This document shows, in pieces, positions 18,746 through 39,490 of a stretch of 64,000 nucleotides of DNA (position 1 is the first letter of the stretch; each line of letters opens with the position of its first letter). This stretch comes from Methanosarcina vacuolata Z-761. GTDB taxonomy: Archaea; Halobacteriota; Methanosarcinia; Methanosarcinales; Methanosarcinaceae. The notes beneath the pieces are model-generated. The model did no database searches. It saw nothing but the letters and a program-made list of their open reading frames with translations, and had not been told where the DNA came from. Where the stretch lies: the NCBI RefSeq assembly GCF_000969905.1, contig NZ_CP009520.1, forward strand, positions 4,278,001 through 4,342,000. The letters are read 5' to 3'. A program made the translations under genes and the position numbers.

Positions 18746-19280
18746 AAGCAGTGAACTTGAATCCAAACCGCAAAAACGAATTCTGATCGCTACTGACGGC
18801 TCAAAAGCTTCTGAAAACGTAGCGGATTTCGGGATAGAAATTGCGAAGAACAGTGGGGCAAAGGTCTATGCTGTATATGTCATCGATGTAACTTTTCTTG
18901 ACTCAATTCTGATGGATGAAACGTCGGTAAAAAATGTCTACGCAGAGTTTGAGATAATTGGTAGTGAAGCAATAAGTCTCATAGAAGAAAATGCAAAAGC
19001 TGCAGGAATAGAAGCTGCGCCCATACTACTTAAAGGAAATCCGGCTGAAAAAATCCTGGATTTTGCTGAGAATCATAAAGTTGACATGATTGTCATAGGG
19101 TCTACTGGAAAAAGCGGGACTGAACGTTTTATGCTTGGAAGCGTATCAGAAAAAGTTGTAAGGCATGCAAAGGTCCCGGTACTTGTCGTACGTGCGAGAT
19201 TTAAACCTGAAAGAGTCTTCAGTTACGGTAAAAGGGATAAAAAAGTCTCAGAAAATATCGTATACGAAGAGACGCAATGA
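18738..19280 (+). CDS. universal stress protein with altered start codon
   Basis: UspA family paralogue of the gene at 17546. The conserved N terminus KRILIATDGSKASENVADFG and the ATP loop IGSTGKSGTERFMLGSVSEKV-x3-HAKVPVLVVR are intact. However, no ATG, GTG or TTG exists in frame before the conserved first strand. The frame opens within the purine repeat; ATA at 18738, preceded by gggggag at a normal distance, aligns with the ATG of the paralogue (MEG... against xEES...). Initiation at ATA or an ATG-to-ATA mutation is the simplest reading; the only in-frame ATG (18912) would drop the nucleotide-binding N terminus. Confidence 0.7.
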   Translation: MEESSELESKPQKRILIATDGSKASENVADFGIEIAKNSGAKVYAVYVIDVTFLDSILMDETSVKNVYAEFEIIGSEAISLIEENAKAAGIEAAPILLKGNPAEKILDFAENHKVDMIVIGSTGKSGTERFMLGSVSEKVVRHAKVPVLVVRARFKPERVFSYGKRDKKVSENIVYEETQ

Positions 19281-19408
19281 AAAGCCGGAGGAAAATTTTT
19301 CAAAAAAGGAATGGGGGGAAATCAATGCTGAGTGAAAAAGACGCAATGAAAAGCCGGAGGAAAATTTTTCAAAAAAGGAATGGGGGGAAATCAATGCTGA
19401 GTGAAAAG
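19271..19408. repeat. 69-bp tandem duplication in the ferritin leader
   Basis: Two essentially identical 69-bp units, starting gacgcaatgaaaagccgg. Each contains the Shine-Dalgarno (ggggggaaatca) and first codons (ATG CTG AGT GAA AA) of the ferritin gene, at 19325 and 19394. 69 is a multiple of three, so the upstream copy is in frame with the gene. Confidence 0.92.
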
Positions 19409-21442: not shown

Positions 21443-22348
21443 TTAATCTGACACTGCTTTTTTGCAGACATCATTTTTGGCACTTAGATAGGACTTACTT
21501 GCGATTTCCATACTGCCTTCCATTTCAGTAATACTCATATCAAAAGTCCGGGCATAATTTAAGACATTTTTATTGAATTCACTTCCCATAGAAATCTCAT
21601 TACTGATTTTGACGACCCTTTTATAATGCTTTTTCAAAAAACTGTCATTAAAGTCAGAAGTGTTGTTTGACTCCATTCTCATTTCTTTCCAGCTGGAAGC
21701 CCACATAGGAGTCAAGTATATCATACCTATTCCTTTCCCGCTCTGCATAACTTCAGCATAATTATCATTGCCCCCAAGAGCTACGCTGATACAGTCATCC
21801 ACAATCTCTCCTTTTTCATCTTTGAGAAAATAAAGAGAGCAGGGAAGATCTTTAAAATCCGCTACCGTGTTCCTTAAAGAGTGCCCACAATTTCCATAGA
21901 AAATAAGAATACCATCTGAAAAAGCTGCCATTTTCCTGATATTCTGGTAGATTTCAGACCTTAAGAGTTCGCAATCTGCGTGCAGGCCAAGCTTCAGAGT
22001 ATTTACAACGACAATAGGCTTTTCCCTGTTCTTTTGTTTACTCTTTCCTCCGGTATTATGAGGTATTTTATTAAAAAACGGAAATTTCAATAAAAGTTTC
22101 AAAATATTCACAGATACAGAGTTATATACAGAGTTATATACAGAGTTATTTGCCTCTTTTAAAAAAATAGGTACTTTTTCCAGAGGAAAAAGTTTTGGCT
22201 GGCAATTTATGGATTTAAGCTTTCGAACAAACCTGATACTTTGCCTGTTTTCAACTACAATCAATTGATTTAAGTCATGGTCTTCTGAGAGGACATATGC
22301 CAGTTCGTCTTCAAGCATTTCACAGGCAATTATGCTAAGTACAGGCAT
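21443..22348 (-). CDS. DUF1638 family protein (first paralogue)
   Basis: 301 residues. Family motifs are VLSIIACEMLEDELAYVL at the N terminus, FSDGILIFYGNCGHSL, VDDCISVALGGNDNY and TPMWASSWKEMRME. DUF1638 proteins occur in methanogens and acetogens, often near corrinoid methyltransferases; the Cys residues in the IIAC, NCG and DDC motifs are conserved, but the function is unknown. The gene follows its paralogue in the same direction, 60 bases downstream, so both probably use the promoter with the palindrome at 23310. An in-frame 12-bp triple repeat near 22110-22150 adds Tyr-Asn-Ser-Val units. Confidence 0.82.
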   Translation of the reverse strand: MPVLSIIACEMLEDELAYVLSEDHDLNQLIVVENRQSIRFVRKLKSINCQPKLFPLEKVPIFLKEANNSVYNSVYNSVSVNILKLLLKFPFFNKIPHNTGGKSKQKNREKPIVVVNTLKLGLHADCELLRSEIYQNIRKMAAFSDGILIFYGNCGHSLRNTVADFKDLPCSLYFLKDEKGEIVDDCISVALGGNDNYAEVMQSGKGIGMIYLTPMWASSWKEMRMESNNTSDFNDSFLKKHYKRVVKISNEISMGSEFNKNVLNYARTFDMSITEMEGSMEIASKSYLSAKNDVCKKAVSD

Positions 22349-22407: not shown

Positions 22408-23205
22408 CTAAATCTCCATTTTGAGTTCGTTATAGCAATCTTTAAAAATTTCCTGATTACCATCATCGAATTCCAAAATTTCAAAATCAAACAAATCTGC
22501 AAATTCCCGAATAGAAGCGTCAAAATTTTCAGTATATTTAAGGCCGGTATTAATCTTGGCGACTCTTTTGTAACCAATCATTTCGTGGGTTTTTTTCATT
22601 AATTTCAATGCTTTGGCTGGATCTTTGTTTAGCTTATTCAGGTCGAGTATTTCCCTCCAGCCTTTGCTGTACATGGGAGTAAAAAGGTATGTTCCAGCAT
22701 CACTAACACTTTTAAGTATCCTTAGATAGTTCTGGACTCCCCCCACAGTAGCCCCTATGCAGTCATCTACAATCCTGTGATCTTTGTCTTTAAGAATACG
22801 GACCGGACACGAGATTGAGCTACGTTGGAAATCTTTTTCAACGTCCCCCAGTACATTCCCACATAAACCGTAAAAGAGCAAAATCCCAGATGAAAAAGGA
22901 GCAAGAGTCTGTATAGTCTCATATACCTTAATTTTCAACTCTTTAGGACTTCTATGAAGACCCAGTTCCATCAGATGAATCAGAACCGTATATTTCTTGC
23001 ATTCGCTTTTGATTTCGGGAAGTGAGGAAATGTCTTCCAGAGAGAGCACTTTATATTGAAGGTTTACTTTATCCAGCTTTTCTACAAATTCCCGAATATT
23101 TTCATTATCAACTACAAGGACTTCATCAATGGAAGAGTCATTTTCAAGAATCCAGATAATTTCGTCCTGCATTATCTTGCATGAAATAATACTCATAATG
23201 GGCAT
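22408..23205 (-). CDS. DUF1638 family protein (second paralogue)
   Basis: 265 residues. Same family as its neighbour: IMSIISCKIMQDEIIWIL, FSSGILLFYGLCGNVLGD, VDDCIGATVGGVQNYLRIL and TPMYSKGWREIL. It is the promoter-proximal gene of the pair. The palindromic site at 23310-23333 lies about 105 bases upstream of its start. It ends in TAG (22408-22410), one of only two real genes in this window outside mtmB that do; reading TAG as pyrrolysine would add only five residues before TGA. Function unknown; its setting next to a TetR gene and the pyrrolysine/methylamine region suggests a link to corrinoid chemistry. Confidence 0.85.
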   Translation of the reverse strand: MPIMSIISCKIMQDEIIWILENDSSIDEVLVVDNENIREFVEKLDKVNLQYKVLSLEDISSLPEIKSECKKYTVLIHLMELGLHRSPKELKIKVYETIQTLAPFSSGILLFYGLCGNVLGDVEKDFQRSSISCPVRILKDKDHRIVDDCIGATVGGVQNYLRILKSVSDAGTYLFTPMYSKGWREILDLNKLNKDPAKALKLMKKTHEMIGYKRVAKINTGLKYTENFDASIREFADLFDFEILEFDDGNQEIFKDCYNELKMEI

Positions 23206-23309
23206 TGAAGCATCTCCACAGAAGTTATGCCAGAAAACCTAATTTTTTAGCAAACATAATTTTTAGCAACAGATTGATTAAGCAATAGATCGATTGTAGT
23301 AATAGAATA

Positions 23310-23333
23310 TACTTACTTACATATAAGTAAGTA
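23310..23333. promoter_or_regulatory. 24-nt palindromic operator upstream of the DUF1638 pair
   Basis: Near-perfect palindrome: left arm TACTTACTTA, centre CATA, right arm TAAGTAAGTA. The same sequence (22-23 nt, plus an adjoining CYGGTTA) occurs at 24805-24828 before the DUF3786 gene. Read on the minus strand the centre is CTTATATG, so the palindrome encloses a likely TATA box. A TetR gene lies between the two sites. Confidence 0.75.
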
Positions 23334-23348
23334 CCGGTTAGGAAAAAA

Positions 23349-23918
23349 TCAGTCCTTCCATCCAATGTCGGCTTTAATTAGAGAAATAGATCTAACAAGC
23401 GTTTTTCTTCCTCTTATACTGGAGAATTGTCTGGCACCCATCAAGGCTTCAGCTACTAATTCTGCACGTGCTTCTACAGAACCAGAGAAATTAAACTCCC
23501 CCTGTTCCAGACCCATTTTAAGAACCCTGGAAATCCAGGTCAGGATGTCATCCATCAACAAAAGGTTTTGCTTTTTAACTTTCTCCGGAAGTTCCTCAAA
23601 ATCGAGAATTACCGAGCCTGGAGGGCAGATTCTTTTGCCTTCATCAAACTCTTTTAATGCGTAATCAAAGTAGTATTGAAGCTGATCACGGGCTGAGCCT
23701 CCGGAGTCCACTATTTGAGCAATATTTGCAGCTAAATTCTTTCTGCTGTCTTCGAGCAAAGCTGCAACTAGATCCTCTTTTTTGGGGTAATAATTATGAA
23801 TTGCTGCATTTTTTATTCCCAATTTCTGAGAAATATCTTTGTAACTAAATCCATTATAGCCCCGACATTGCAAAAAATTCCTTGCGTAATATAGTATTTG
23901 CTGATTAGTCTCGTTCAT
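23349..23918 (-). CDS. TetR family transcriptional regulator
   Basis: 189 residues. The N-terminal TetR HTH is clear: ARNFLQCRGYNGFSYKDISQ, KLGIKNAAIHNYYPKKEDLV. The rest is the ligand-binding helical domain, with motifs of the TetR_C family (ALKEFDEGKRICPPGSVILD), including a Cys in CPPG. It most likely binds the palindrome found at 23310 and 24805, repressing the flanking DUF1638 and DUF3786 genes. Its own promoter region (23919-23990) has a different inverted repeat, ctattca/tgaatag. The ligand is unknown. Confidence 0.88.
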   Translation of the reverse strand: MNETNQQILYYARNFLQCRGYNGFSYKDISQKLGIKNAAIHNYYPKKEDLVAALLEDSRKNLAANIAQIVDSGGSARDQLQYYFDYALKEFDEGKRICPPGSVILDFEELPEKVKKQNLLLMDDILTWISRVLKMGLEQGEFNFSGSVEARAELVAEALMGARQFSSIRGRKTLVRSISLIKADIGWKD

Positions 23919-24051
23919 ATCTATTCATAAAAAACATTTATACTCGTTAATAAGTTAATTGAATAGTGTTTTTATTCATATAAACTTAGTCCTCCGATTT
24001 ATTAGATGAGAAACATCTTGCATTTCACATTATATACACAAGTATTACACT

Positions 24052-24107
24052 ATCCGGTTGTATCACACCCATCCGGTTGTATCACACCCACCCGGTTGTA
24101 TCTTCTG
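24052..24107. repeat. 19-bp tandem repeat at the end of the DUF3786 gene
   Basis: Units of atccggttgtatcacaccc at 24052 and 24071, and a third diverged copy from 24090. The stop codon and last five codons of the minus-strand gene lie inside the array, so its C terminus (TTGWV) is made by repeat DNA. Confidence 0.85.
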
Positions 24108-24711
24108 TTTTGGTTGTCATAATCATCGCTCTTATAAGGCATCCCTCTAAAAAAGCCAGACATTCAAATTCCAGAAAGCATGAAGCATTTTTATCAAACA
24201 GAACCTGAACTTCACAAGGAAATTCATCGTCTCCATCATAATAAACGATTTGGAGAAGGATTTTAGGCAATGCTTTCAGAAGCCACGAATAACCGCCAGA
24301 TTTCAGCTTGCCATTAAAAACCCCGCCTAATTTGCACATGGTTTCACTGAATGTTGCATAATCTCCACTGAATATTTTACCAAGCGGATCAGTCATCCAT
24401 TTTGTATTTGTGCTGAATGTTATTCCTGTACCGGCAAGATTAGAAATCGGCATATATGAAAATGCAGGTTCACCCATACCTTTGGACAATGAATAGTAAG
24501 CCAGAACACTGAGGTTGTTGACATCAAACGGCTTACCGTCAGTCGGATTAATACCGCGAGAACTTATCTCATACTCTCGGCCAAGAAAATTGACAGATAG
24601 AGCACCGTCCGGGTGAAGAGACAGGCCAAGCCGTTCGGCAACTTCAAAAAAATCGCATTTGCTCAATTTGGGTATGAGGTTTTCATAAATTTGTTCATAA
24701 CCACTATTCAT
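24082..24711 (-). CDS. DUF3786 family protein
   Basis: 209 residues. Matches the DUF3786 layout: ISSRGINPTDGKPFDVNNLS, VLAYYSLSKGMGEPAFSYMP-IS, then FSGDYATFSETMCKLGG and KILLQIVYYDGDDEFPCEVQ-VLFD. The family occurs in strict anaerobes and often near corrinoid or acetyl-CoA pathway genes; its biochemical role is unknown. The promoter carries the second copy of the palindrome (24805-24828, about 95 bases before the start), so it is probably in the same regulon as the DUF1638 pair. The C-terminal end lies in a 19-bp repeat and may be altered. Confidence 0.8.
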   Translation of the reverse strand: MNSGYEQIYENLIPKLSKCDFFEVAERLGLSLHPDGALSVNFLGREYEISSRGINPTDGKPFDVNNLSVLAYYSLSKGMGEPAFSYMPISNLAGTGITFSTNTKWMTDPLGKIFSGDYATFSETMCKLGGVFNGKLKSGGYSWLLKALPKILLQIVYYDGDDEFPCEVQVLFDKNASCFLEFECLAFLEGCLIRAMIMTTKTEDTTGWV

Positions 24712-24804
24712 AAAATACTCCCTTCAGTGCGCACCGAAGGTGCTGATTAGCTCTTATTTGGGTTATTAGAAATCCATTTTGAATATATCCTCAATACAGA
24801 AGAT

Positions 24805-24828
24805 AGTTACTTACATATAAGTAAGTAC
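24805..24828. promoter_or_regulatory. second copy of the palindromic operator, upstream of DUF3786
   Basis: Shares TTACTTACATATAAGTAAGT and the adjoining AC-Y-GGTTA with the site at 23310; only the outermost left bases differ (GT instead of AC). The spacing to the downstream start codon (about 95 nt) is close to that at the first site (about 105 nt). Confidence 0.75.
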
Positions 24829-24987
24829 TGGTTAAACAAACGATAAAATAAAAAATTTTGTTGTGGAAGGAATATCCAAAACTCTTAGAATTAAAAACAA
24901 TAATACATAGGGTTTAAACTAATTAATAGCGAAAAGGGCAGCAGACTGCCGAAATGCTGCAACCGGCTGCCAAGCGAAATTAAGGTA

Positions 24988-25767
24988 TTAAAGCACAGAA
25001 TACAGCATTGATGCCGTTCCTATTCCAAGGGGCTCAGCTACAAGTTGAACGTCGTATTTCTTTCGAAGCTCTTCAGAAATTGCGCAGGGAATTCCTGGAG
25101 TTGAAAGCACGCAATTCTCCGAAAGTACGGCCTCAGGAATCGTGTTTGCGCATGGGGTCGCCTCGAAAATAGTGGAAAACTTTTTTGGATTTGCAGGATC
25201 GAGTGGGATAACCCCGAGGTCTGAAACAGCTCTCTTAAGGAGTCTTGCATCAGGATCATACCCGTAAACCCTGAAGCCTTTCTGCACAAGTTGGGCTGCT
25301 CCGGGAAAACCTACCTTTCCAAGCCCCATAACAAGTACGTCCTTTGAGTCGGCTTTCAGGTATCTGGAAGCGATCTCAGCATAAATTACACCTGTGCAGG
25401 GTTGATTATTGGCCATTTTTCCATTTTTGATGTTATGGGCAAGGAAAGTGTGGTCGTCTGCCATAAGGATGATCTCGGCTCCGTTCTGCACAGCTTCATA
25501 ATAGCCGCTAACATCCGGCATATCCGTAACAAAACTGTCAAATCCGAAATACTGCGTAATTGCATGCAGGGAAGCAGAAAAGTTTCCTATTATCCCATTT
25601 CCTGAAGTTACAGGCACGATACCTACTTTTTCGGAGAGCGGGGAAGTACCGTAGAGAGCTTGACAGACGTCTTTTATATCAAGCCCTGTTACTTTTTGCA
25701 CGACAGAGTCGGCTTCCTGAAGTTGTCTATTAATATTTATCAAATCATTTGGGGTTAAAAGTGCCAT
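24988..25767 (-). CDS. pylD: PylD, pyrrolysine biosynthesis dehydrogenase
   Basis: Last step of pyrrolysine synthesis: NAD-dependent oxidation of 3-methylornithyl-lysine, which then cyclises to pyrrolysine. About 259 residues from ATG 25767 (MALLTP), the start used by known PylD; an upstream ATG at 25779 adds MAIK. N-terminal segment GIVPVTSGNGIIGNFSASLH and the Rossmann motif VLVMGLGKVGFPGAAQLV are typical, and the C terminus LVAEPLGIGTASMLYSVL matches the family end. It is the final gene of the pyl operon, 210 bases after pylC, and ends with TAA. Confidence 0.96.
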   Translation of the reverse strand: MALLTPNDLININRQLQEADSVVQKVTGLDIKDVCQALYGTSPLSEKVGIVPVTSGNGIIGNFSASLHAITQYFGFDSFVTDMPDVSGYYEAVQNGAEIILMADDHTFLAHNIKNGKMANNQPCTGVIYAEIASRYLKADSKDVLVMGLGKVGFPGAAQLVQKGFRVYGYDPDARLLKRAVSDLGVIPLDPANPKKFSTIFEATPCANTIPEAVLSENCVLSTPGIPCAISEELRKKYDVQLVAEPLGIGTASMLYSVL

Positions 25768-25988
25768 TTTTATCGCCATTTCCTATTTAGGAGAATTTAA
25801 ATTTTATATTCATTAAACCTGGGGATTATAAATTATAATTTTCATGAATATAAGTTTTTAATACCCATTTATTGAAATTTGAGTTTTTTAGACATCAAAT
25901 TCGTTAAATCTAAGTTTTAGAGCTTTAATTTCTTAAAATCTAAGTTTTTAATCCTTTTTATTATTTTTTTGTCCTCAAATTTATTCAT

Positions 25989-27080
25989 TCATAAAATCGC
26001 TCCGAAACGCTCCTTTAGAACCGAAAGTCCTTTGCATTTTTTTGCTCCGGTTTCTTCCCTGTCCTTACCCCAGAAGATCAGGGTAAATACCGGATTTTCT
26101 CCTTTGCAAAGAAAAATCTCAATGCCGGGTTCTTCGTAGAATTTTCCATAGTCGCTACCCATGGAAAGTACCTGTTCTCCAACAGGAACAAGAACACCGT
26201 TTTCTCCGAGCAGTAGGTGCTCGTAAATGCAGTATTTTTTTTCTGGAAGAGATTTGATTTCCTCAACACCGTCAGTAAAGGCGTGGAAAAGAAGTTCTAT
26301 CAGGTTGATTCCTGAAGAATAGTAAACTGCTGTCGGGGTCTGGCTTGGGAAACGGGCATCGATTTCGATTACCCTGAGACCTTTTGGGCTGAAGATTGCT
26401 TCCACGTCCATAATACCTTTCAAGGGAAGATTTGCTGCAAGAGCATGGGAGATCTGCCTGAATAAAGGATTCGCAGGAAGTGGAGTTACCATGTGGCAGT
26501 CATAAGTTTCGTCTATATGGACCAGGGTCTCTTTTACCACGGCGAAATGACTTCCATCCCCGACAACTTCGAGAGAAACAACTTCGCCTTCCACATATTC
26601 CTCAACCAGCATGTCAGGTTCAAGGGCCTCAAGCTCTTTGTCCTCATAAATTATCCTGGCGCCCACACTGCTGCTTTCACAGGGAGGCTTTACAAAATAA
26701 GGAGGGCTGGAGGGCCGGTCCTGCGGAGTTGGGACTCCTATGGACTTAAAATAATCTTTTGAGCGTTTTTTATCCCTGCTTATCCGATAAGCTTCAAAAT
26801 CGAAAAGTACCGGGCAGGAGAATTTTTCTTTTATTGAATTCAGAAATTCGATGCAGGCCAGATTTTCGTTCACAGGAAGTATAGCATCAACCTTTTGTGA
26901 GAGCTCAAGGAGTTTTTCAGGTTCCTTTATTACATCAAAACAGTAAAATTCATCCGCGTAATTACGGATGAGGGCCTGTGGATTTTTATCCACCAGAACT
27001 ACTTTCATTCCGGCTTTTTTAGATAGATACGCAGCTTCGAAGCCCTGGAGTTTCCCGCCTACAAGACAGATTGTTTTCAA
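25989..27080 (-). CDS. pylC: PylC, 3-methylornithine-lysine ligase
   Basis: ATP-grasp ligase joining 3-methylornithine to the epsilon amine of lysine. The start is TTG 27080, one base after the pylB stop, giving 363 residues and the expected beginning KTICLVGGKLQGFEAAYLSK. ATP-grasp features are PYFVKPPCESSSVGARIIYE, MLVEEYVEGEVVSLEV and LRVIEIDARFPSQTPTAVY. Translation is probably coupled to pylB because stop and start nearly touch. The gap to pylD (25780-25988) is AT-rich with short repeated 'aaatctaagttttt' phrases. Confidence 0.96.
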   Translation of the reverse strand: MKTICLVGGKLQGFEAAYLSKKAGMKVVLVDKNPQALIRNYADEFYCFDVIKEPEKLLELSQKVDAILPVNENLACIEFLNSIKEKFSCPVLFDFEAYRISRDKKRSKDYFKSIGVPTPQDRPSSPPYFVKPPCESSSVGARIIYEDKELEALEPDMLVEEYVEGEVVSLEVVGDGSHFAVVKETLVHIDETYDCHMVTPLPANPLFRQISHALAANLPLKGIMDVEAIFSPKGLRVIEIDARFPSQTPTAVYYSSGINLIELLFHAFTDGVEEIKSLPEKKYCIYEHLLLGENGVLVPVGEQVLSMGSDYGKFYEEPGIEIFLCKGENPVFTLIFWGKDREETGAKKCKGLSVLKERFGAIL

Positions 27081-27081
27081 G

Positions 27082-28134
27082 CTAGCACCCCAGGACTGCC
27101 TCAAAGTCAGCCTGCCGAGCAGGTTTCATTCCCATGGTTTCAAGCCTTTGGATCACGCTTTTTATGTCCCGATCCCGTTCTTTAAGTCCACGGTCATAGT
27201 TTGCAACGCCTTCCAGTTGGGAATCGGGAGGGAGGATAGAAGTAACAATATTTGCCCCTGCATTTAAGCGGCGAACCATGCCGTCAATGCCTTCAAGGTC
27301 AAGGGAGGCAGGGATGAGGCGTTTGGGAAACATTAACCTGAGAACAGAGATAATTTTCAGTTCCGAGAGATTTGATTTATCCCTGAAATCTTCAAGTGGA
27401 GTTCCTTCCTGAGGCAGGAAAGTCATAACTCTGACCATATCAGGATCGTTTGTGCTCATTCCCCTTAAGGACAGAATGGTGGATTCGATATCGTTTCCAA
27501 CGCCGGTGAGTATTCCGTCTTCTACACAATACCCCTGATTTTTAGCAAAACGGCGTGCATTGACACGCCCATCGAATGACTGCCCAACTCTAAGTTTCCG
27601 GTAGAGTTCGGTGTCATATGTTTCCTGATAAAGGGCCAGGAAGTTTGCTCCTTTTTCCCTGGCTTTGAGAAGAGTAGCGTTATCCATCAAGCCTGGAGAA
27701 ATCATAATGGGAAGCCCAAGTTCCTCTTTTACTACCTGGACAAGCTCAACGAAACGGTTCGGGTCTTCATAGTAATAGGGGTCTTCCCCCATGGTCAGGT
27801 CAACCATATGAAAACCTGCTCCTTTCAGGGTTTTGCAGGTTTCTTTTATCTCTTCCATGGTCAGTCGATAGCGGTTGATCTCGTTTCGACAGTTATAGTA
27901 GCAAAAGGAGCATTGATTTTTACAGTAAGTGGAGAAATAAATGAAACAATTAAGAAATACCCTGTTGCCAAAATAATGATCTCTTACTTTTCGGGCTGCA
28001 GAATAGAGCCTTTCCAGATCTTCTATGGATTCAAGGGAAAGAAGAGCCCTCAGGTCGTTATCAGTTAATTGATACCCTTCAATGACTTTTTCTCCCAAAC
28101 TGTCAAATTCATCAAGTGCCATTTTTTGGATCAA
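27082..28134 (-). CDS. pylB: PylB, methylornithine synthase (radical SAM)
   Basis: Radical SAM mutase that converts lysine to 3-methylornithine. 350 residues, as in known PylB. The iron-sulfur motif is YCKNQCSFCYYNC (C-x3-C-x2-C); downstream LTMGEDPYYYEDP, GILTGVGNDIEST and GIDGMVRRLNAGANIVTS are family hallmarks. The start follows a moderate Shine-Dalgarno (gagggtgaaatt). It ends with the amber codon TAG (27082-27084), at the normal family C terminus (VLGC against VLRC as I recall in M. barkeri). Read-through would add pyrrolysine plus 20 residues before TAA. Confidence 0.97.
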   Translation of the reverse strand: MIQKMALDEFDSLGEKVIEGYQLTDNDLRALLSLESIEDLERLYSAARKVRDHYFGNRVFLNCFIYFSTYCKNQCSFCYYNCRNEINRYRLTMEEIKETCKTLKGAGFHMVDLTMGEDPYYYEDPNRFVELVQVVKEELGLPIMISPGLMDNATLLKAREKGANFLALYQETYDTELYRKLRVGQSFDGRVNARRFAKNQGYCVEDGILTGVGNDIESTILSLRGMSTNDPDMVRVMTFLPQEGTPLEDFRDKSNLSELKIISVLRLMFPKRLIPASLDLEGIDGMVRRLNAGANIVTSILPPDSQLEGVANYDRGLKERDRDIKSVIQRLETMGMKPARQADFEAVLGC

Positions 28135-28254
28135 AATTTCACCCTCTCATAGATTCTTCAGATATTTGACGGCCCTATCAGAGCCGATTGTCAATTTAAT
28201 CTCACCATTTAGCTTATTTTGCCATATTGAGTTTTTACCATCCCGTTTTTGAAT

Positions 28255-28480
28255 CAATATTGCCATTCAATGTTGCCATTCAATGTTGCCATTCGATATT
28301 GCCATTGATATTGCCATTCAATGTTGCCATTGATATTGTCAGTCAATGTTGCCATTGATATTGTCAGTCAATGTTGCCATTGATATTGTCAGTCAATGTT
28401 GCCATTCAATATTGTCAGTCAATGTTGCCATTCAATATTGTCAGTCAATGTTGCCATTGATATTGCCATTTTACTTTTTG
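28255..28480. repeat. tandem repeat array between pylS and pylB
   Basis: At least six units of about 25-26 bp, consensus caatgttgccattgatatt plus gtcagt, between 28318 and 28465, flanked by shorter pieces of the same phrase (attgccattcaatg). The rest of the 560-bp gap (to 28650) contains decayed versions ('ttttgccatt'). No gene is present. Inside an operon this array lies in the mRNA between pylS and pylB. Confidence 0.88.
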
Positions 28481-28695
28481 CCATTAATACTGCTATTTTG
28501 CCTTTTGCCATTTGATATTGCCATTAGGTATCGCAATTCTTTTTGCCTTTCAGAGCTGCAATTAATTTTGCCATTTAGTACTGCAACTCTTTTTGACATC
28601 CAGTATCGCAATTCCTTTTTGCCATTTAATACAGTGTTTTAATATCTTCGACCGGTGTTTAGCGATTTTTAGTTACTTTGGGCGGACTTTCCAGC

Positions 28696-29973
<1,278 letters not shown>

Positions 29974-30204
29974 TTAAAAGCCCGGATGATTTCCAAGAAA
30001 TAGTATTTCAAAATCCCGGCTTACGGAATATAAGCACGGAGCCAGCAATTTGCTGACAGCTACCCGGAAAATAGAAGCGATCCACACAACAGAAACAATT
30101 TATATAGTCTGGAAAAAAATCTCCAGCTTTTATAAAAGATTTCGGCGGAATGTTCTGAATGTATCTAGAATGTTATTGTATTACCATTCCGGGATTCAGA
30201 AATA

Positions 30205-30276
30205 TGGCGGAAACCCCGGGAATCTAACCCGGCTGAACGGATTTAGAGTCCATTCGATCTACATGATCAGGTTTCC
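30205..30276 (-). tRNA. pylT: tRNA-Pyl (CTA) with encoded CCA
   Basis: On the minus strand the acceptor ggaaacc (30270-30276) pairs with ggtttcc, followed by discriminator G and CCA (30205-30207). The anticodon CTA corresponds to tag at 30244-30246. It shows the known oddities of tRNA-Pyl: a six-base-pair anticodon stem, a small D loop, one base between acceptor and D stems, and a three-base variable loop. It is the promoter-proximal gene of the pyl operon, 250 bases before pylS, and matches my memory of the M. barkeri sequence throughout. Confidence 0.99.
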
Positions 30277-30418
30277 TCCTCGGCAAAATAGATTGAACAA
30301 AGCGTTTTGCTTCCTGTATGGTGGTCTTAATAATAATATAAAATAATATTATTTAGTATATATGATTATTGGTGGAAATCTAAGAAAAACAGGTTCTTAT
30401 TTATAAATTTTTTGCAAG

Positions 30419-30590
30419 CCTTTTAAAAAAAGGTTGACCGAAAACCCCAGCAACGTTTGAATTTTAGGAAATTATCCCCGAACCCTATCGACGCGATCAC
30501 AACCCTTTTCAAAAAAGGCTTGACCGAAAACCTCAGCAACATTTGAATTTGATGAACTTGTCCCAAAACACTATCGGCGTGATCACAACC
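30419..30590. repeat. tandem duplication of about 87 bp
   Basis: Copies at 30419-30503 and 30504-30590 share ccttttnaaaaaaggnttgacc, gaaaaccncagcaac, tttgaattt, ctatcg-x-cg and gatcacaaccc, about 80% identical, with a third partial copy (cttttcaagcctgg) after. No reading frame. It lies between the pylT promoter and the ramA terminator. Confidence 0.8.
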
Positions 30591-30611
30591 CTTTTCAAGC
30601 CTGGTGAAGAA

Positions 30612-30650
30612 AAGGTAAAATAAAAGAAAGTGGGTGAAAATTTAGCCCAC
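30612..30650 (-). terminator. ramA terminator
   Basis: On the minus strand gtggg...cccac (30630-30650) forms a stem and is followed by a T-rich tract (tttcttttatttt). Confidence 0.5.
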
Positions 30651-30655
30651 CATAA

Positions 30656-30703
30656 GTTATTTCGTTACTTCGCTGTGATGTTATTTCGTTACTTCGCTGT
30701 GAT
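30656..30703. repeat. perfect 24-bp duplication at the ramA stop
   Basis: gttatttcgttacttcgctgtgat is present twice in direct tandem (30656-30679 and 30680-30703; shown here with key bases only as needed). The right copy holds the last codons and stop of ramA; the left copy is an exact echo beyond the stop. Such a copy suggests recent slippage. Confidence 0.9.
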
Positions 30704-32311
30704 TTTCAGTTTCGTGATATCAATAGCATCTTCGGGACAGATGCCGACACAACGGCGGCAGCTTGTACCAAGGCATTTCTGGCTGTCGTATTTTGCGATT
30801 CTCTGGCCGTCTCTTTCTACTATTTCAAGGGCTGCTTCTGGGCATTCTTTTACGCATTTTTTGCAGTATACGCACTTTTCCACCAGAACTTCGAGTATTA
30901 TGCCAATTTCTTTGAGTATAGAAAGCCCGCCTGACCCGACCTCTTCGATGTCTTTGCTGACTCGCTTTTCGATGCTTACATGTTCGAGAGTTTTCGGGAG
31001 GGGGGGCAGGCCGTAGAGTTCAAGCATCTGGTCATACGTCTCAAGTGGCATGCCCTGGGTCCAGTAGGAAAGTTCGCATAGGTAGAAATTATTGAAAGTC
31101 TCACTGGTCGCCATCATAAGGTGATCGGCAGTAATTTTCTTTGCAATATCAATTACGTCATTCAGCCTTGATTTTTCCAGCACAAGTTCCCGAGCAAGCG
31201 CAAGCGAGGTATTTCCAAACTGAACAATTTTTTTTGCATAACCCGGTGCGGCTCCGAGTCTGCGGGCGTCTTCAGCATCCACATAGGCTCCAGAGGCTCC
31301 TGACATATATGCGTACTCCAGGTCTTCATACTTGATTCCGGATTCAACGATCAGGGTCATATGGGCAGCCCGGATTGCTCCGATAGCTTTTCCGGCTTCT
31401 TCTACATCCTTTTCATTGATCTCAATCCCTGGACCCAGGATCAGCTTTCCATTCGGAAGTTTAGGAAGTTTTTCAATCAACCCGATTCTCAGTGCTAAAG
31501 CAAAAGCCGAGATAACTCCTGTGCCTGTGATTCCGACGGCTTCGAATCCATAGGACTCCTTTATCTCCCCTGTAATTGGATCTATAAGGTAAGCGTCCTG
31601 TTTTTCCATTTCCCTGTCAAGAACCATAATTCTCCAGTACTGTCCTTCAGGTTTTACATCACAGATCGCGCCAGGACTTGCGAGCATGCCTGAACTTATA
31701 CCCTGCCCTTCAATCGCAGGTCCTGCTGCTGCGCTTGCAGTGATAATTCGACCCCCGATTTTCAGAGCCATTTCGGCATTTGTTCCGTAATCCGTGACAA
31801 GAGAAGGTTCGGGCTGGATAAGAAAATCGGTTTCAAGCATCATAGCCAGGGCGTCAGCTCCAATCTCGTGCTTGATTGCAGGGGGGACGATAACTTCACA
31901 GTTAGGCAGGTCTTTTTTCCCGAAAATTTCCGACGCAGGAAACACACGGGCATCTCTTTTTACATTCCTGACTCCAAGCATCTTCTGTTTATTTTCTCCT
32001 GCATAGGCAAGGTCCCTTATTTCAGTATTCTGGAAAAGGGAAAGCTGGATAGGGTTTCCACAGACTGCCAGCCTTTCCACCCTGGAAAGATCAACATCGA
32101 ACCGCAGGAACATTCTCCTGACGGTCTCGATAATTACCTCATGAGCCACATCTTCACCTGTTGTGATTGCAAAATCCAGGTGATCCATGACATTTCCCCC
32201 GGGGAGGGGATGACCCATGGTTATAACTGTCTTTAAGGTTTTCTTCGTTTCAAGATCAATAAGCTGGGCTCTAAAACCGCTGGTACCCAGATCAAGTGCT
32301 ATTCCATACAT
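30689..32311 (-). CDS. ramA: RamA, reductive activator of corrinoid methyltransferases
   Basis: ATP-dependent iron-sulfur protein that reduces inactive Co(II) corrinoid proteins such as MtmC to the active Co(I) state. 540 residues. The N-terminal part is a DUF4445/ASKHA-type domain with GIALDLGTSGFRAQLIDLET and VTDYGTNAEMALKIGG. The C terminus carries two 4Fe-4S ferredoxin motifs, CVYCKKCVKECPEAA and CLGTSCRRCVGICPEDA. Its length and layout equal the methylamine-specific RamA of M. barkeri. It is transcribed toward pylT from its own promoter. The 3' end has a recent 24-bp duplication beyond the stop. Confidence 0.97.
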   Translation of the reverse strand: MYGIALDLGTSGFRAQLIDLETKKTLKTVITMGHPLPGGNVMDHLDFAITTGEDVAHEVIIETVRRMFLRFDVDLSRVERLAVCGNPIQLSLFQNTEIRDLAYAGENKQKMLGVRNVKRDARVFPASEIFGKKDLPNCEVIVPPAIKHEIGADALAMMLETDFLIQPEPSLVTDYGTNAEMALKIGGRIITASAAAGPAIEGQGISSGMLASPGAICDVKPEGQYWRIMVLDREMEKQDAYLIDPITGEIKESYGFEAVGITGTGVISAFALALRIGLIEKLPKLPNGKLILGPGIEINEKDVEEAGKAIGAIRAAHMTLIVESGIKYEDLEYAYMSGASGAYVDAEDARRLGAAPGYAKKIVQFGNTSLALARELVLEKSRLNDVIDIAKKITADHLMMATSETFNNFYLCELSYWTQGMPLETYDQMLELYGLPPLPKTLEHVSIEKRVSKDIEEVGSGGLSILKEIGIILEVLVEKCVYCKKCVKECPEAALEIVERDGQRIAKYDSQKCLGTSCRRCVGICPEDAIDITKLKITAK

Positions 32312-33582: not shown

Positions 33583-34602
33583 ATGGCAGAATATACCCCA
33601 AAAGAAAGATTGTACCGTGCATTAAGGAAACAGCAGGTGGACAGGATGCCAGCTGTCTGTTTCACTCAGACTGCAACTGTCGAACAGATGGAAGCTTGCG
33701 GAGCCTACTGGCCAGAAGCCCATGCCGACGCAGAGAAAATGGCGACTCTTGCGGAAGCAGCGCATACCGTAGTAGGTTTTGAAGCTGTGAGAGTTCCCTT
33801 TGACATTACAGCTGAAGCTGAATTTTTTGGTTGCGGTATAAAGGCTGGCGACCTGAAGCAGCAGCCTTCAGTGATTAAACCCAGTGTTAAGAACCTGGAA
33901 GATCTGGAGAAATTAAAGAATTACAACCTGAAAGAAGGCAGAATTGCAGTAATCCTTGAAGCTGTCAAGATTCTCTCCGAAAAATACGGGAAAGAGCTCC
34001 CGATTATAGGGTCCATGATAGGTCCTTTCTCTCTTGCCCAGCATATTAACGGAGATGCCTGGTTCGGAAACCTTTTCACAGGAGAAGAGATTGTCCCCGC
34101 GCTTCTGGACTTCTGCTCGGACTTCAATGTAGCATATGCAAAAGCAATGGTTGAAAACGGTGCAGACACCATAGCCATCATTGACCCGACAGCAAGCTAT
34201 GAGCTCATTGGTGGAGAGTTCTACGAGAAGTATGCCCTGCCCTATCAGAAGAAGATAGTTGATGCAATGAAGGAACTCGATGTGGCTACAGTGCTTCACA
34301 TTTGCGGAAACACAACCAACGGCCTTGGAATTATGGATAAGACCGGCGTAAACGGGATCAGCGTAGACCAGAAGGTAGACATCAAGACCGCAACCGGTAA
34401 TGTGAAAAATGCAATCGTTGTCGGAAACCTTGACCCTGTAGCCGTGCTCTGGAACGGAAATCCGGAGGAGATTGAAGAAGCCTCAAAGAAGGCACTTGAC
34501 GCAGGCGTTGGGTTACTCACCGTTGGCTGCGGGACTGTCAGTATGACACCAACAGTCAATCTTCAAAAGATGATTGAGTGCGCAAAAAGCCACACATACT
34601 AA
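33583..34602 (+). CDS. mtbA: MtbA, methylated corrinoid protein:coenzyme M methyltransferase
   Basis: Transfers the methyl group from methylated MtmC (and other methylamine corrinoid proteins) to coenzyme M. 339 residues, UroD-like TIM barrel. The zinc ligands are visible as the H-x-C pair in [10 protein letters not shown] (about residues 237-239) and the Cys in [13 protein letters not shown] (about 316). The start ATG follows gagggattataa. The gene is monocistronic with a long AT-rich upstream region and a hairpin terminator right after. MtbA rather than MtaA is supported by the neighbouring mtmC and mtmB genes. Confidence 0.95.
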
Positions 34603-34681
34603 AAACATTGCTGAATAGATTCAGATACTGAATATATCGGACACTGATGGTGTGCCGTATTAATGAAATTTAAAAACGGAT

Positions 34682-34710
34682 AAGCCGGCCTTAAGCCGGC
34701 CTTATTTTTA
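34682..34710 (+). terminator. mtbA terminator
   Basis: aagccggc, a five-base loop and gccggcctt form a GC-rich stem with one bulge, followed by attttta. Confidence 0.8.
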
Positions 34711-34740
34711 ATAATTTTCCAAAAAAATTACTTTATCAGG

Positions 34741-34935
34741 CTTGTTTTCTTTCATCTAATCTAGTATTCTTCAATCTAGCATTTTTTAATCTAGCATTTT
34801 TCAAGCTAGCATTCTTCAATTTAGCATATTTCAATTTAGCATTCATCAAGCTAGCATTTTTCAATCTAGCATATTTCAATTTATCATTCTTCAATCCAGC
34901 ATTCTTCAAGCTAGAATACTTCAATCTAGCATTTT
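34741..34935. repeat. 15-16-bp tandem repeat array after mtbA
   Basis: About 13 variable units of tcaatctagcattttt, with versions tcaagctagcattctt and tcaatttagcatattt. Lies between the mtbA terminator and the small TAG-containing frame. It reads open on the minus strand only because its period is a multiple of three in places; not a gene. Confidence 0.9.
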
Positions 34936-34965
34936 TCAGAAGAAACCATTATTCAGCCCGCAAGT

Positions 34966-35250
34966 ATGAAATTATTAGTTAAAGACCTCTTTTTAAAAAA
35001 TATACCGCATAGGATCTTGCGGCAGAAGATTGAAGATCTCGAAAAAGAATACCGCGACCTCAAATTATAGTATTTATACTTTTTGCTTTTGGGGTTAATA
35101 ATATTGAAGATCAGATATAAAAACAGATTTGAAGCACAGGACTTTGAAGCTGGAGATTGCATATATAAAAGAGATTGCAATGGCTTGAAATTCCAGTATT
35201 TATATTTTGTCTTTAATGCTCATATTTTAAAATTTAAGAGAAAAAAATAA
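34966..35250 (+). CDS. possible small protein with in-frame TAG (pyrrolysine candidate)
   Basis: ATG 34966 opens MKLLVKDLFLKNIPHRILRQ, KIEDLEKEYRDLKL, then TAG at 35068-35070. The frame then stays open for 59 more codons to TAA 35248-35250, giving 94 residues if TAG is read. The part before TAG is a charged helix; the part after begins YLYFLLLGLIILK, a possible membrane segment. An internal imperfect repeat aligns DLKL-TAG-YLYF with GLKF-Q-YLYF, so the amber may have arisen from CAG. It lies between mtbA and mtmC in a pyrrolysine-using genome. No Shine-Dalgarno is visible, and chance openness in AT-rich DNA is possible. Confidence 0.3.
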
Positions 35251-35743
35251 TGGGAATATAGTATTCGTTTATATAGTATAATTTTAATCTTTATTTAGGG
35301 ATTGAGCCTTGAATGTTCAGGACAATTCCAGGCAGTTCCAACAGGCATACTGTTGGAAAATTCGGGATATAAAGCTAATTCGACTGGGAAACAAATTTGC
35401 AGTTTCCGGCAAGTAAATTCCCCGGTAACAATGTCATAAGAGAAGAAATTATTCACAACGGACCCGAACCTATTCGGGCAAAATGGCAAATGACAGTGAA
35501 TAATTTTGAAGATAAATAATTAGAAATTCGTAAAGTAACATCCTCGCGCCTAATGGCTGAAAAATATAAGGCAGCAGAGGGATCTGAACCTAAAATAAGA
35601 ACCCCATGCAAATGCTCTTTTTTAGCTAGCGGAGCTTGGGTCTGTGTTCAAGCATAAAGCCTTTGCGAGAAAATGACTCTGGAGATATTTTACTGCCCAA
35701 CGATGCTGCAAAGAACTACGAATCTCAGTGGAGGTTTATAAAA
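35251..35743. other. mtmC upstream region
   Basis: About 490 bases with no supported gene. It contains a stem tccaacaggcatactgttgga (35336-35356) and a frame ending IRAKWQMTVNNFEDK that lacks a start. The right 200 bases are probably the 5' leader of the mtmCB transcript, as methylamine operons in this genus have long leaders. TATA candidates are present (tttatatagtataat, about 35269-35283). Confidence 0.4.
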
Positions 35744-36397
35744 ATGGCAAATCAAGAGATTTTTGATAAGTTACGCGACGCAATCGTAAATCAAAACGTT
35801 GCAGGCACCGCACAGCTATGCAAGGAGGCTCTGGCTTCAGGAATTCCGGCACTTGACATTATTACAAAGGGCCTTTCCATTGGAATGAAAATTGTCGGTG
35901 ATAAGTTTGAAGCCGCTGAGATTTTCCTGCCTCAGATCATGATGTCTGGAAAAGCGATGAGCAATGCAATGGAAGTTCTTACCCCTGAACTTGAAAAGAA
36001 CAAGAAAGAAGGAGAAGAAGCTGGACTTGCCATCACCTTTGTTGCAGAAGGAGATATTCACGACATTGGTCACAGGCTTGTTACCACTATGCTCGGAGCA
36101 AATGGATTCCAGATCGTTGACCTTGGAGTTGATGTGCTTAATGAAAACGTTGTAGAAGAGGCTGCAAAACACAAAGGGCAAAAGGTTCTTCTTGTTGGTT
36201 CTGCCCTTATGACCACCTCCATGCTCGGCCAGAAAGACCTTATGGACAGGCTCAGAGAAGAAAACCTCAGAGACAGTGTAAAGTGCATGTTCGGAGGAGC
36301 TCCTGTATCTGATAAATGGATTGCCGAAATCGGAGCAGATGCAACTGCAGAAAACGCTGCAGAAGCCGCAAAAGTAGCACTTGAGGTAATGAAATAA
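35744..36397 (+). CDS. mtmC: MtmC, monomethylamine corrinoid protein
   Basis: Carries the methyl group from MtmB to MtbA on a cobalamin cofactor. 217 residues from ATG 35744, which follows gtggaggtttata; the frame is open further upstream but that part is not family-like. A helical cap (1-90) precedes the B12-binding Rossmann domain with GDIHDIGHRLVTTMLGANGF (D-x-H-x2-G, His as cobalt ligand), LVGSALMTTSMLG and MFGGAPVSDKWIAEIGAD. It is 18 bases upstream of mtmB, the same order as in known mtmCB operons. Confidence 0.96.
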   Translation: MANQEIFDKLRDAIVNQNVAGTAQLCKEALASGIPALDIITKGLSIGMKIVGDKFEAAEIFLPQIMMSGKAMSNAMEVLTPELEKNKKEGEEAGLAITFVAEGDIHDIGHRLVTTMLGANGFQIVDLGVDVLNENVVEEAAKHKGQKVLLVGSALMTTSMLGQKDLMDRLREENLRDSVKCMFGGAPVSDKWIAEIGADATAENAAEAAKVALEVMK

Positions 36398-36415
36398 TCC
36401 TGGAGGCAAAAGACG

Positions 36416-37792
36416 ATGACATTTAAAAAATCATTTGACTGCTATGATTTCTACGACAGAGCTAAAGTAGGAGAAAAGTGTACCCAGGATGACTGGGACC
36501 TTATGAAGATCCCTATGAAAGCAATGGAGCTCAAGCAGAAGTACGGGCTTGACTTCAAAGGAGAGTTTATCCCAACAGACAAGGATATGATGGAAAAACT
36601 CTTCAAGGCCGGCTTTGAGATGCTCCTTGAGTGCGGAATTTACTGTACCGACACACACAGGATTGTAAAATACACTGAAGACGAAATCTGGGATGCAATT
36701 AACAACGTGCAGAAAGAATTCGTGCTCGGAACTGGCAGGGATGCCGTTAATGTCAGAAAGAGAAGTGTTGGTGACAAGGCAAAGCCAATCGTACAGGGTG
36801 GGCCTACTGGTTCTCCAATTTCAGAAGACGTATTTATGCCTGTTCACATGAGCTATGCCCTGGAAAAAGAAGTAGACACCATCGTTAACGGTGTCATGAC
36901 CTCGGTACGCGGAAAAGCTCCTATTCCAAAAAGCCCTTACGAAGTCCTTGCTGCAAAGACCGAAACAAGGCTCATTAAGAACGCGTGCGCCATGGCCGGT
37001 AGGCCTGGCATGGCTGTCTAGGGCCCAGAGACCTCCCTGTCCGCTCAGGGAAACATTTCCGCTGACTGTGCCGGTGGAATGACCTGTACGGACAGCCACG
37101 AGGTCTCGCAACTCAACGAACTCAAGATCGACCTTGATGCAATTTCAGTTATTGCTCACTACAAAGGGAACAGCGACATCATTATGGACGAACAGATGCC
37201 CATCTTTGGAGGGTATGCAGGTGGAATTGAAGAAACCACAATTGTAGATGTTGCAACCCACATTAACGCTGTTCTCATGAGCAGTGCAAGCTGGCATCTT
37301 GACGGCCCAGTCCACATCCGCTGGGGTTCAACCAACACCAGGGAAACCCTTATGATTGCAGGATGGGCATGTGCAACAATTTCCGAATTTACGGACATAC
37401 TGTCAGGTAACCAGTACTACCCATGTGCAGGCCCATGTACTGAGATGTGTCTGCTCGAAGCTTCAGCCCAATCCATTACCGACACAGCATCAGGCAGAGA
37501 AATCCTCTCAGGAGTAGCCGCAGCAAAGGGTGTCGTTACCGACAAGACCACAGGTATGGAAGCCAGAATGATGGGAGAAGTAGCAAGGGCAACCGCAGGT
37601 GTGGAAATATCAGAAGTAAATGTGATACTCGACAAGCTTGTAGCACTCTATGAGAAGAACTATGCAAGCGCACCAGCAGGAAAGACCTTCCAGGAATGCT
37701 ACGACGTAAAGACCGTAACCCCAACTGACGAGTACATGCAGGTATACGACGGAGCAAGGAAGAAGCTCGAAGACCTAGGACTTGTATTCTAA
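36416..37792 (+). CDS. mtmB: MtmB, monomethylamine methyltransferase with pyrrolysine
   Basis: Methylates MtmC with monomethylamine. 458 residues when the in-frame amber TAG at 37019-37021 is read as pyrrolysine, which is codon 202, exactly the known position. The frame before (SFDCYDFYDRAKVGEKCTQD to AGRPGMAV) and after (GPETSLSAQGNISADCAGGM) is continuous and ends in TAA. Directly after the TAG, ccctg-tccgct-caggg forms the stem-loop at the place called PYLIS. Automatic annotation would split it in two. The Shine-Dalgarno is ctggaggcaaaa. A strong terminator follows at 37836. Confidence 0.98.
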
Positions 37793-37835
37793 GTTGAAAG
37801 TCCAGAGCCTGAAATATATACTGACGGAAACGAAA

Positions 37836-37868
37836 AGCCAGCGGGTTAGCTCGCTGGCTAATTTTTTT
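37836..37868 (+). terminator. mtmB terminator or attenuator
   Basis: Perfect 8-bp stem agccagcg/cgctggct (37836-37843 with 37852-37859), then aattttttt. It separates mtmB from the permease cluster, so expression of the latter would need read-through or its own promoter. Confidence 0.88.
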
Positions 37869-37976
37869 AACAACATTCAGGCGAAACAATTATATAGACA
37901 TGTTGCAAATGCTAAGGATTTTTTGAAAAATAACTAAAAAAATATAATAACTTAGTATTAAAAAGGGGATATTAAA

Positions 37977-38081
37977 ATGGATATCTGGACTTTAATAAAC
38001 GGACTTATATATCTCCTGGCTTTCGGATTGATGGGCTGGGTCTTACTGGATGCCAGTAAGGTTTCAAAAAGAAGAGGCTGA
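37977..38081 (+). CDS. 34-aa membrane miniprotein upstream of mtmP
   Basis: ATG 37977, with aaaggggatatta as Shine-Dalgarno, encodes 34 residues: MDIWTLINGLIYLLAFGLMG, then WVLLDASKVSKRRG and TGA. It is one membrane helix with a basic tail, so the C terminus is predicted to be in the cytoplasm. It ends five bases before mtmP. The strong ribosome site, tight spacing and clear topology argue that it is translated. Miniproteins like this often bind and adjust a transporter; that role is inferred from position only. Confidence 0.7.
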   Translation: MDIWTLINGLIYLLAFGLMGWVLLDASKVSKRRG

Positions 38082-38086
38082 TAGAC

Positions 38087-39490
38087 ATGTCTGAACATGA
38101 GTCTGCCAGCTTAGTGAAAACTCTGAGGCCTTTCCATGTATGGGCTCTAGGAGTTGGTATCGTGCTGGTCGGAGAATACATGGGCTGGAACTTTACCGTT
38201 GCAAAAGGAGGCGTTCTCGGGTCTTTGCTTGCCATGCTGGTTGCAGGAACAATGTATGTCATAATCTCCCTCTGTGCCAGTGAACTTGGATCAGCAACCA
38301 AACTTGCAGGAGGACCCTATGACTGGGCAAGATTATTTATCGGGCCCGGGGCGGCTGCCAGTGTGGGACTTGCGGTGTATATGGAGTATATAGCCCTTGA
38401 AGCGGCAGATGCTATTGTTGTTGCATCCATTTCACAGAGTATCTTCCCGGAGCTGCAGGTTTATCCAGTAACTCTGCTTGTTATTGCACTTCTAACCTTC
38501 ATTAATTACCGTGGCGTTGTTGCGGCATTAACTCTGAACTTTGTCCTGACCATGATCGCTTTCATTGCAATATTGGCCTTCTTCTTTTCAACTGCCTTTG
38601 GAATAGGGGATATTCACCCTGAGTACCTTTTGCAGGGTGCTCTACCAAACGGCATGATAGGCCTCTTTGCAGCTTTACAATTCGGGCCATGGTTTTACTT
38701 AGGGATAGAAGGAGCGGCAATGTGCGCAGAAGAGTGCAAACACCCATCAAGGGCAGTGCCTCTTGGACAGCAGGCTGGAATGATTACTCTGCTCATAGGA
38801 GCAGCAATGACCCTCTACTTATGTGCAGTGCTGATCCCTGCCGATCTACTTGGAGTTTCAGTTTATCCGCTTTTTGAGGCTGCACAGAACAGTGGGATCT
38901 TAATCTTTGTTGCCCTGCTGGGGCTTGGAACATTTCTGACATGTGTTGCCAGTGCAAACGGCTGCGTTTGTGACTCCTCACGCTCCTGGTTTGCGCTCTC
39001 AAGAGACAATTACGTGTCTTCCTGGTTCTCAGCAGTGCATCCGAAGTATAATACTCCATACAGAGCAGTAATCTTCACGATGCCTGTTGCAATCGGCTTT
39101 GCATTCAGCGGTTATCTTGACCAGGTAATTACCTTCTCAATTGTTTCGGGGCTGCTTTGCTACGTTTTGATTCCTTTCTCCCTGATACGCTTTAGAAAAC
39201 TCTTCCCGGAGACTACGAGTAAAGTCAGGCCTTTTGTGGGCCCTCTTCAGCCGTATATTGCCTATTTTGCAATTGCAATCGCAATTACGATTCTTTCAAC
39301 GCTGTTCTGGGGCTACAAGTATAACCTGATCTTCGCTTTTGTATTCTACGGTATTGCGTACTTCTATTTCAGCCACAAACACAAGAAATCAAACATTGAA
39401 AATAACTGGGCTGAAATGGGCTGGCCCTCACCCAAAGGATCGGAAAATAGAAGAATTAAGAAGGAGGCGACGGGCATTGGAGACGAATGA
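38087..39490 (+). CDS. mtmP: MtmP, probable monomethylamine permease (APC family)
   Basis: 467 residues with 12 predicted membrane helices of the amino acid-polyamine-organocation superfamily. Visible: the first-helix region FHVWALGVGIVLVGEYMGWN, then SELGSATKLAGGPYDWARLF, and FGPWFYLGIEGAAMCAEECK with the conserved Glu of helix six. The last 40 residues are a hydrophilic tail. Location after mtmCB and before two more small membrane proteins supports methylamine uptake. The 3' end overlaps the next start by 14 bases. Substrate is inferred from context; the genus carries similar permeases beside each methylamine methyltransferase. Confidence 0.88.
   Translation: MSEHESASLVKTLRPFHVWALGVGIVLVGEYMGWNFTVAKGGVLGSLLAMLVAGTMYVIISLCASELGSATKLAGGPYDWARLFIGPGAAASVGLAVYMEYIALEAADAIVVASISQSIFPELQVYPVTLLVIALLTFINYRGVVAALTLNFVLTMIAFIAILAFFFSTAFGIGDIHPEYLLQGALPNGMIGLFAALQFGPWFYLGIEGAAMCAEECKHPSRAVPLGQQAGMITLLIGAAMTLYLCAVLIPADLLGVSVYPLFEAAQNSGILIFVALLGLGTFLTCVASANGCVCDSSRSWFALSRDNYVSSWFSAVHPKYNTPYRAVIFTMPVAIGFAFSGYLDQVITFSIVSGLLCYVLIPFSLIRFRKLFPETTSKVRPFVGPLQPYIAYFAIAIAITILSTLFWGYKYNLIFAFVFYGIAYFYFSHKHKKSNIENNWAEMGWPSPKGSENRRIKKEATGIGDE

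Follow-up and report, generated by a model that had tools for sequence, protein, structure and literature searches.

The locus and its two palindromes

The stretch of DNA analysed here, termed the window, is a 64-kb piece of the complete Methanosarcina vacuolata Z-761 genome that carries a methylamine/pyrrolysine island. The island presents the gene series mtbA, corrinoid protein, mtmB, permease, ramA, tRNA-Pyl and pylSBCD, followed by a DUF3786 gene, tetR and a pair of DUF1638 genes (Table 1). PylD, PylC, PylB and PylS all exceed their NCBIfam cut-offs, as do RamA (TIGR04270, 868 bits; cut-off 500) and MtbA (638.8 bits; cut-off 600). The pyl_corrinoid score is 282 bits, and an in-frame amber codon, which a pyrrolysine protein should have, divides mtmB (36416-37792) into two reading-frame pieces. 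The two DUF1638 genes score 125 and 128.7 bits with the Pfam model.

Table 1. Features of the window, with predicted operators and neighbouring genes
Feature	Position	Strand	Description
DUF1638 gene 2	21443..22348	-	301 aa, second behind O1
DUF1638 gene 1	22408..23205	-	265 aa, first behind O1
O1, predicted operator	23310..23333	.	TACTTACTTACATATAAGTAAGTA, 0 mismatches to TACTTACTTA-N4-TAAGTAAGTA
tetR	23349..23918	-	189 aa; Pfam TetR_N 34.3 bits, cut-off 24
Candidate vestigial operator	23940..23957	-	TAACTTATTAACGAGTAT, weight-matrix p ~0.02, weak
DUF3786 gene	24082..24711	-	209 aa, behind O2; Pfam DUF3786 154.6 bits
O2, predicted operator	24804..24827	.	TAGTTACTTACATATAAGTAAGTA, 1 mismatch to TACTTACTTA-N4-TAAGTAAGTA
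pylD, pylC, pylB, pylS, pylT, ramA	24988..32311	-	context, outside operator control
tRNA-Pyl	30205-30276		
mtbA, mtmC-like corrinoid protein, mtmB, mtmP-like amino-acid permease	33583..39490	+	context, outside operator control

Upstream of the DUF1638 pair lies O1, a perfect 24-nt palindrome with a 4-nt spacer, and upstream of the DUF3786 gene lies its near-copy O2. Each overlaps the TATA-like box (CTTATATG, - strand) of the genes it faces, the box at O2 possibly serving also a joint DUF3786-tetR transcript, and each is flanked 3' on the + strand by CYGGTTA (CCGGTTA at O1, CTGGTTA at O2). A sequence-only reading of the window had described this arrangement: two palindromes with a common flank and a TATA-like element on the coding strand, a TetR gene between them, and the pyrrolysine operon alongside. 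These elements are all found, the first palindrome at the position given for it. The second starts at 24804, not 24805, and the distances from site edge to start codon, similar for both sites as claimed, are 104 nt (O1 to ATG 23205) and 92 nt (O2 to ATG 24711) rather than 105 and 95.

The window holds no further site with up to three mismatches; 0.00 chance copies are expected at this level, and shuffled window sequences yield none. We therefore reject control of the pyl, ramA or mtm genes through the same site. Because tetR follows DUF3786 in the same orientation, O2 may govern tetR too. The tetR promoter has its own TATA-like box (23977-23984), and downstream of this box only a degenerate site is left, the candidate vestigial operator, at -37, where loci L040, L046, L049, L050, L054 and L128 have perfect sites. 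Autoregulation in this genome would therefore depend on O2 and on the transcript of DUF3786. Short tandem CCGGTTGTATCACACCCA copies occur at 24050-24105, between the DUF3786 end and tetR.

A structure model of the TetR protein (pLDDT 86) and fold comparison show an all-helical TetR fold with a C-terminal ligand domain. Its best fold matches are 2g7s (TM 0.85), 3on4, NemR (4yze; TM about 0.8) and the PA2196-DNA complex (4l62). The first two, from Agrobacterium and Legionella, are also the best sequence matches, at about 28-29% identity over the whole chain. The recognition helix is found around IKNAAIHNYY (residues 35-44).

Distribution of sites and regulator among relatives

A scan of the complete genome with the 18-nt core, allowing up to two mismatches, finds O1 and O2 and no third site. 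Of 31 Methanosarcina genomes, 17 contain the exact core TTACTTA-N4-TAAGTAA, and its 32 copies are all within 2 kb of a tetR. It is present in 17 of the 19 genomes with the Ala39 type of tetR described below vs none of the 12 without (Fisher 6e-7). Orthologs of tetR (76-98% identity) are present in the majority of Methanosarcina genomes, though not in every one, and in a sister genus, with one to three full-length copies per genome. An extended pattern with up to two mismatches falls at 42 places, 37 of them at tetR loci, three at a permease locus of G023 and two isolated ones elsewhere; relative to the exact core, it brings in G007 as well as further, weaker sites next to tetR. We reject a global motif on the strength of these scans; the palindrome at many unrelated promoters, which would have refuted the sequence-only reading, is not what they find.

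We compared 37 tetR loci from Methanosarcina, Methanolobus and Methanomethylovorans, 36 of which have sites; the remaining one (L045, from an incomplete genome) has neither a site nor DUF1638. The gene directly downstream of tetR is DUF1638 in 33 loci, usually paired as in the window, an amino-acid permease in three and neither in one. The site for this downstream gene starts ~20 nt past the tetR stop in most loci, and 31 loci keep an O1-equivalent site between +584 and +653 of tetR. The second site is less constant in place. It is found upstream of DUF3786 (the window, G029, G003), upstream of a QueG-like gene followed by DUF3786 (G020, G003, G023), upstream of a QueG-like gene without DUF3786 (M. 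acetivorans-type G014), facing tetR itself after DUF3786 loss (G028, G002, G023, G019), or 37-45 nt ahead of the start codon of tetR (G008, G027, G004, G025, G009 and Methanomethylovorans). The DUF3786 proteins of the genus form two sets, six linked to tetR and six unlinked, and an operator-type site heads the operon in all six linked cases and in none of the unlinked ones. G007 retains a DUF3786 remnant beside tetR. In the closest relative (G029, L033:6697-8637) the first DUF1638 gene is split by an inserted 330-aa frame on the opposite strand, with the operator and the second DUF1638 gene still present.

The permease of the three exceptional loci is nearest to the NCBIfam model PRK11021; in G022 and G010 tetR stands between DUF6951 and this permease. 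A further permease locus (L083:6374-7344, G023:C116), a relative of those in G022 and G010, no longer has tetR, and its DUF6951 gene is frameshifted, with three imperfect sites persisting. This has the appearance of a second regulon locus in decay, whose sites are possibly served in trans. The permease ortholog of the present genome (93%; G000:C2:2651375) has no recognisable site, and permease control is rejected here.

Fourteen TetR proteins have Ser39 (IKNASIHHYY or IKNSSIHHYY) in place of Ala39 in the recognition helix. They make up all 14 rows of a paralogous branch, with a single change on the tree (support 100/95). Residue 39 presumably faces the DNA major groove, judging from the TetR fold. 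Ser39 loci have CTACCTA-N4-TAGGTAG-type sites at the same places where Ala39 loci have TTACTTA-type sites. All exact TACCTA-N4-TAGGTA sequences in the genus are at Ser39 tetR loci except two, which have unrelated spacers and lie in genomes without the Ser39 type. G003 and G023 contain both tetR types, each adjoining its own operator type. M. acetivorans has a Ser39 tetR beside its DUF1638 pair, whereas genomes of the M. barkeri type have Ala39. The case for a joint change of regulator and operator in the paralogous branch is strong, although not replicated, since the change happened once and hybrid half-sites exist (L039, L058, L127). Genome uniqueness of the sites, their co-occurrence with tetR and the covariation of residue 39 with the operator together strongly imply that TetR would bind the palindrome beside its own gene. 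What these comparisons outline is a real, conserved and local system of TetR and its predicted operators.

Predicted targets and a probable corrinoid link

In the literature on DUF1638 and DUF3786 we found no description of this regulator. The sequence-only proposal of a small regulon that includes both families is supported, and the regulon seems to be undescribed in that literature; the type of switch is ordinary. Bacteria need DUF1638 for cobalamin-dependent methionine synthesis: methionine restores a DUF1638 mutant of Phaeobacter inhibens, and across alpha-proteobacteria the presence of DUF1638 follows that of a RamA-like protein (PMC5764234). The discoverers named no particular function for it. 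In Ruegeria, DUF1638 rises alongside RamA on N-osmolytes (PMC12478193). The likeness to the present locus lies in the company of a RamA-type corrinoid activase. The bacterial pair differs in serving methionine synthase and the demethylation of glycine betaine, and TetR control is not reported there; here two DUF1638 copies stand under a predicted TetR operator in a methylamine island.

Archaeal gene neighbourhoods point in the same direction. DUF1638 is met beside ramA and corrinoid methyltransferase genes in the window island and, outside Methanosarcinaceae, in a compact mtaC-mtaB-ramA-DUF1638 operon (G179:C89, L158:5118-9713). In G077 (L159:2802-10228) it is the next gene after mcrA in the methyl-coenzyme M reductase cluster, with an ABC-type ATPase gene (component A2-like) following it, and elsewhere its neighbour encodes a B12-binding/URO-D fusion or is of MTHFR type. 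In several genomes without tetR at this place, the pyl/ramA island still contains a DUF1638 of 87-90% identity. Directly after DUF1638 and on the same strand, one locus (L043, G019:C9:504480-506086) has ramA as two overlapping pieces, perhaps through a frameshift or an assembly error. Co-occurrence of DUF1638 with RamA outside Methanosarcinaceae is not above chance (2/7 vs 25/116, p 0.65), and a general coupling in the phylum was rejected, its significance being due to Methanosarcinaceae alone.

The DUF1638 structure model (pLDDT 91.5) gives only middling matches (Z <=8.7; ParA/SRP-type, periplasmic binding proteins, racemases), on which we make no fold assignment, and a PDB sequence search gave no credible matches. 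Four cysteines of DUF1638 (Cys9, Cys115, Cys133 and Cys149) are invariant, which hints at a metal or redox site. The QueG-like target of relatives matches epoxyqueuosine reductase (5d6s) over its length and PceA partly. Epoxyqueuosine reductase and the reductive dehalogenase PceA are both cobalamin and iron-sulfur enzymes. Combining the mutant literature, the island context, the G179 operon, the other DUF1638 neighbours and the QueG-like target, we favour a role in corrinoid maintenance, with DUF1638 likely an accessory of corrinoid-protein reactivation. Such a role would fit the location in the methylamine-pyrrolysine-ramA island. The permease targets of three loci fit this theme poorly.

A proposed switch and its alternatives

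At target promoters of the Ala39 type the 4-nt spacer is YATR, TATG- or TATA-like, so that the palindrome contains the TATA box. The seven sites 37-45 nt before tetR instead have the spacer CTRR, and ~24 nt upstream of them lies a separate TTTATATG-type box, the TATA of tetR itself. Spacer sequence would be immaterial to TetR alone but material to TBP. The difference between the two site classes suggests exclusion of TBP/TFB at the targets and a start-site block at tetR.

We propose that TetR, encoded between the two copies of the palindrome, uses them as its operators. By default a TetR dimer would cover the TATA boxes that serve the DUF1638 pair and the DUF3786(-tetR) transcript, and so block assembly of the archaeal pre-initiation complex, until an inducer, a ligand or a redox signal, releases it from the operators. 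TetR would be a strictly local repressor, probably autoregulated, with two operators per genome. Its targets would most likely keep corrinoid methyltransfer proteins active, with DUF1638 as a partner of RamA, and in relatives a QueG/RdhA-like cobalamin-Fe-S protein would join the target set. Physical binding by TetR, repression rather than activation, and the role of the targets are what we infer from sequence. Taken together, a local TetR repressor acting on two TATA-covering operators, with targets that maintain corrinoid methyltransfer proteins, is in our judgement quite probable.

A palindrome may also act as RNA, here as a terminator of tetR or a leader hairpin, and the paired arm changes of the paralogs would then be compensatory, preserving an RNA stem. 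O1 is indeed predicted to form an 11-bp stem closed by a tetraloop (-10.8 kcal/mol, z -2.7), but O2 folds no better than shuffles (z -0.7), and we reject the hairpin because only one site is stable beyond shuffles. Sites are also found before unlinked or upstream genes and inside the tetR promoter, they track tetR presence across genomes and residue 39 of a DNA-recognition helix, and, because the TATA box is in the spacer, they lie upstream of their own transcript's expected start; we therefore regard an RNA function as highly improbable. Somewhat less remote, though still improbable, is that TetR mainly controls its own gene, or activates, while DUF1638 and DUF3786 use other promoters. Perfect or near-perfect sites stand 37-45 nt before tetR in five mazei-type loci and Methanomethylovorans, the second site faces tetR after DUF3786 loss in G028, G002, G019 and G023, and at the promoter of its own gene the TetR-family FadR of Sulfolobus acidocaldarius stimulates the binding of TBP/TFB (PMC6449355). 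Yet the DUF1638-facing site is retained in 31 of 33 loci, mostly with a TATA-type spacer, and L083 keeps a permease-facing site though its tetR is lost.

FadR is otherwise a close archaeal parallel: a TetR-family repressor with a dyad operator, a local regulon and only four genomic sites, of which one, autoregulatory, lies just downstream of its own start site (PMC6449355), as the sites just before tetR would. It differs in that its targets are a fatty-acid cluster and most of its sites are far from promoters, whereas the predicted sites here overlap TATA boxes; nor is it among the close sequence matches.

Many TetR proteins that are not known to act in redox sensing have a cysteine at the place of Cys98. 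In the present family Cys98 is invariant in 27 aligned proteins and has the same spacing to an acidic-x3-L-P/S-E motif as NemR Cys106, through which NemR senses reactive chlorine (PMC7464077); a thiol switch in TetR is therefore possible. The regulon might then be a NemR-like defence against electrophiles or oxidants, or one of amino-acid (methionine-type) export as the PRK11021-like permease of three loci would suggest, with a coincidental corrinoid tie. NemR of Escherichia coli is among the nearest folds and, like PA2196, offers a precedent for local control of a neighbouring operon. Identity to either is about 18-21%, however, and only the Cys106 position is clearly kept in TetR, with Lys175 and the electrophile cysteines Cys21 and Cys116 not evidently so. 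The tetR neighbours (DUF1638, DUF3786, QueG-like, permease) include no nemA/gloA-type genes, and the DUF1638 and QueG-like targets point to cobamides; we consider defence or export unlikely.

A redox inducer is compatible with corrinoid maintenance as well. That the inducer is a redox or corrinoid-damage signal, perhaps perceived through Cys98, is a tentative suggestion; the corrinoid- or methylamine-related ligand of the sequence-only reading is a guess. The fuller proposal is of a redox- or cobamide-sensing TetR, with Cys98 as its thiol sensor, under which a module for the rescue of corrinoid proteins is switched on beside RamA in methylotrophic methanogenesis. The module would consist of two DUF1638 proteins, DUF3786 and a cobalamin-Fe-S reductase of QueG/RdhA type. 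This proposal is more speculative still, and we hold it to be rather doubtful.

The proposed circuit gives DUF1638 and DUF3786, the latter with no known role, a testable place and time of action, and the predicted switch ties them to the ramA-pyrrolysine-methylamine island. The two operator types of close paralogs in one genome could furthermore provide compact repressor-operator parts for Methanosarcina genetics.

Elsewhere in the window a ferritin-like frame opens with a tandem duplication of ~20 codons (19277-19400; MKSRRKIFQKRNGGKSMLSEK twice), which suggests that its true start is the inner copy.
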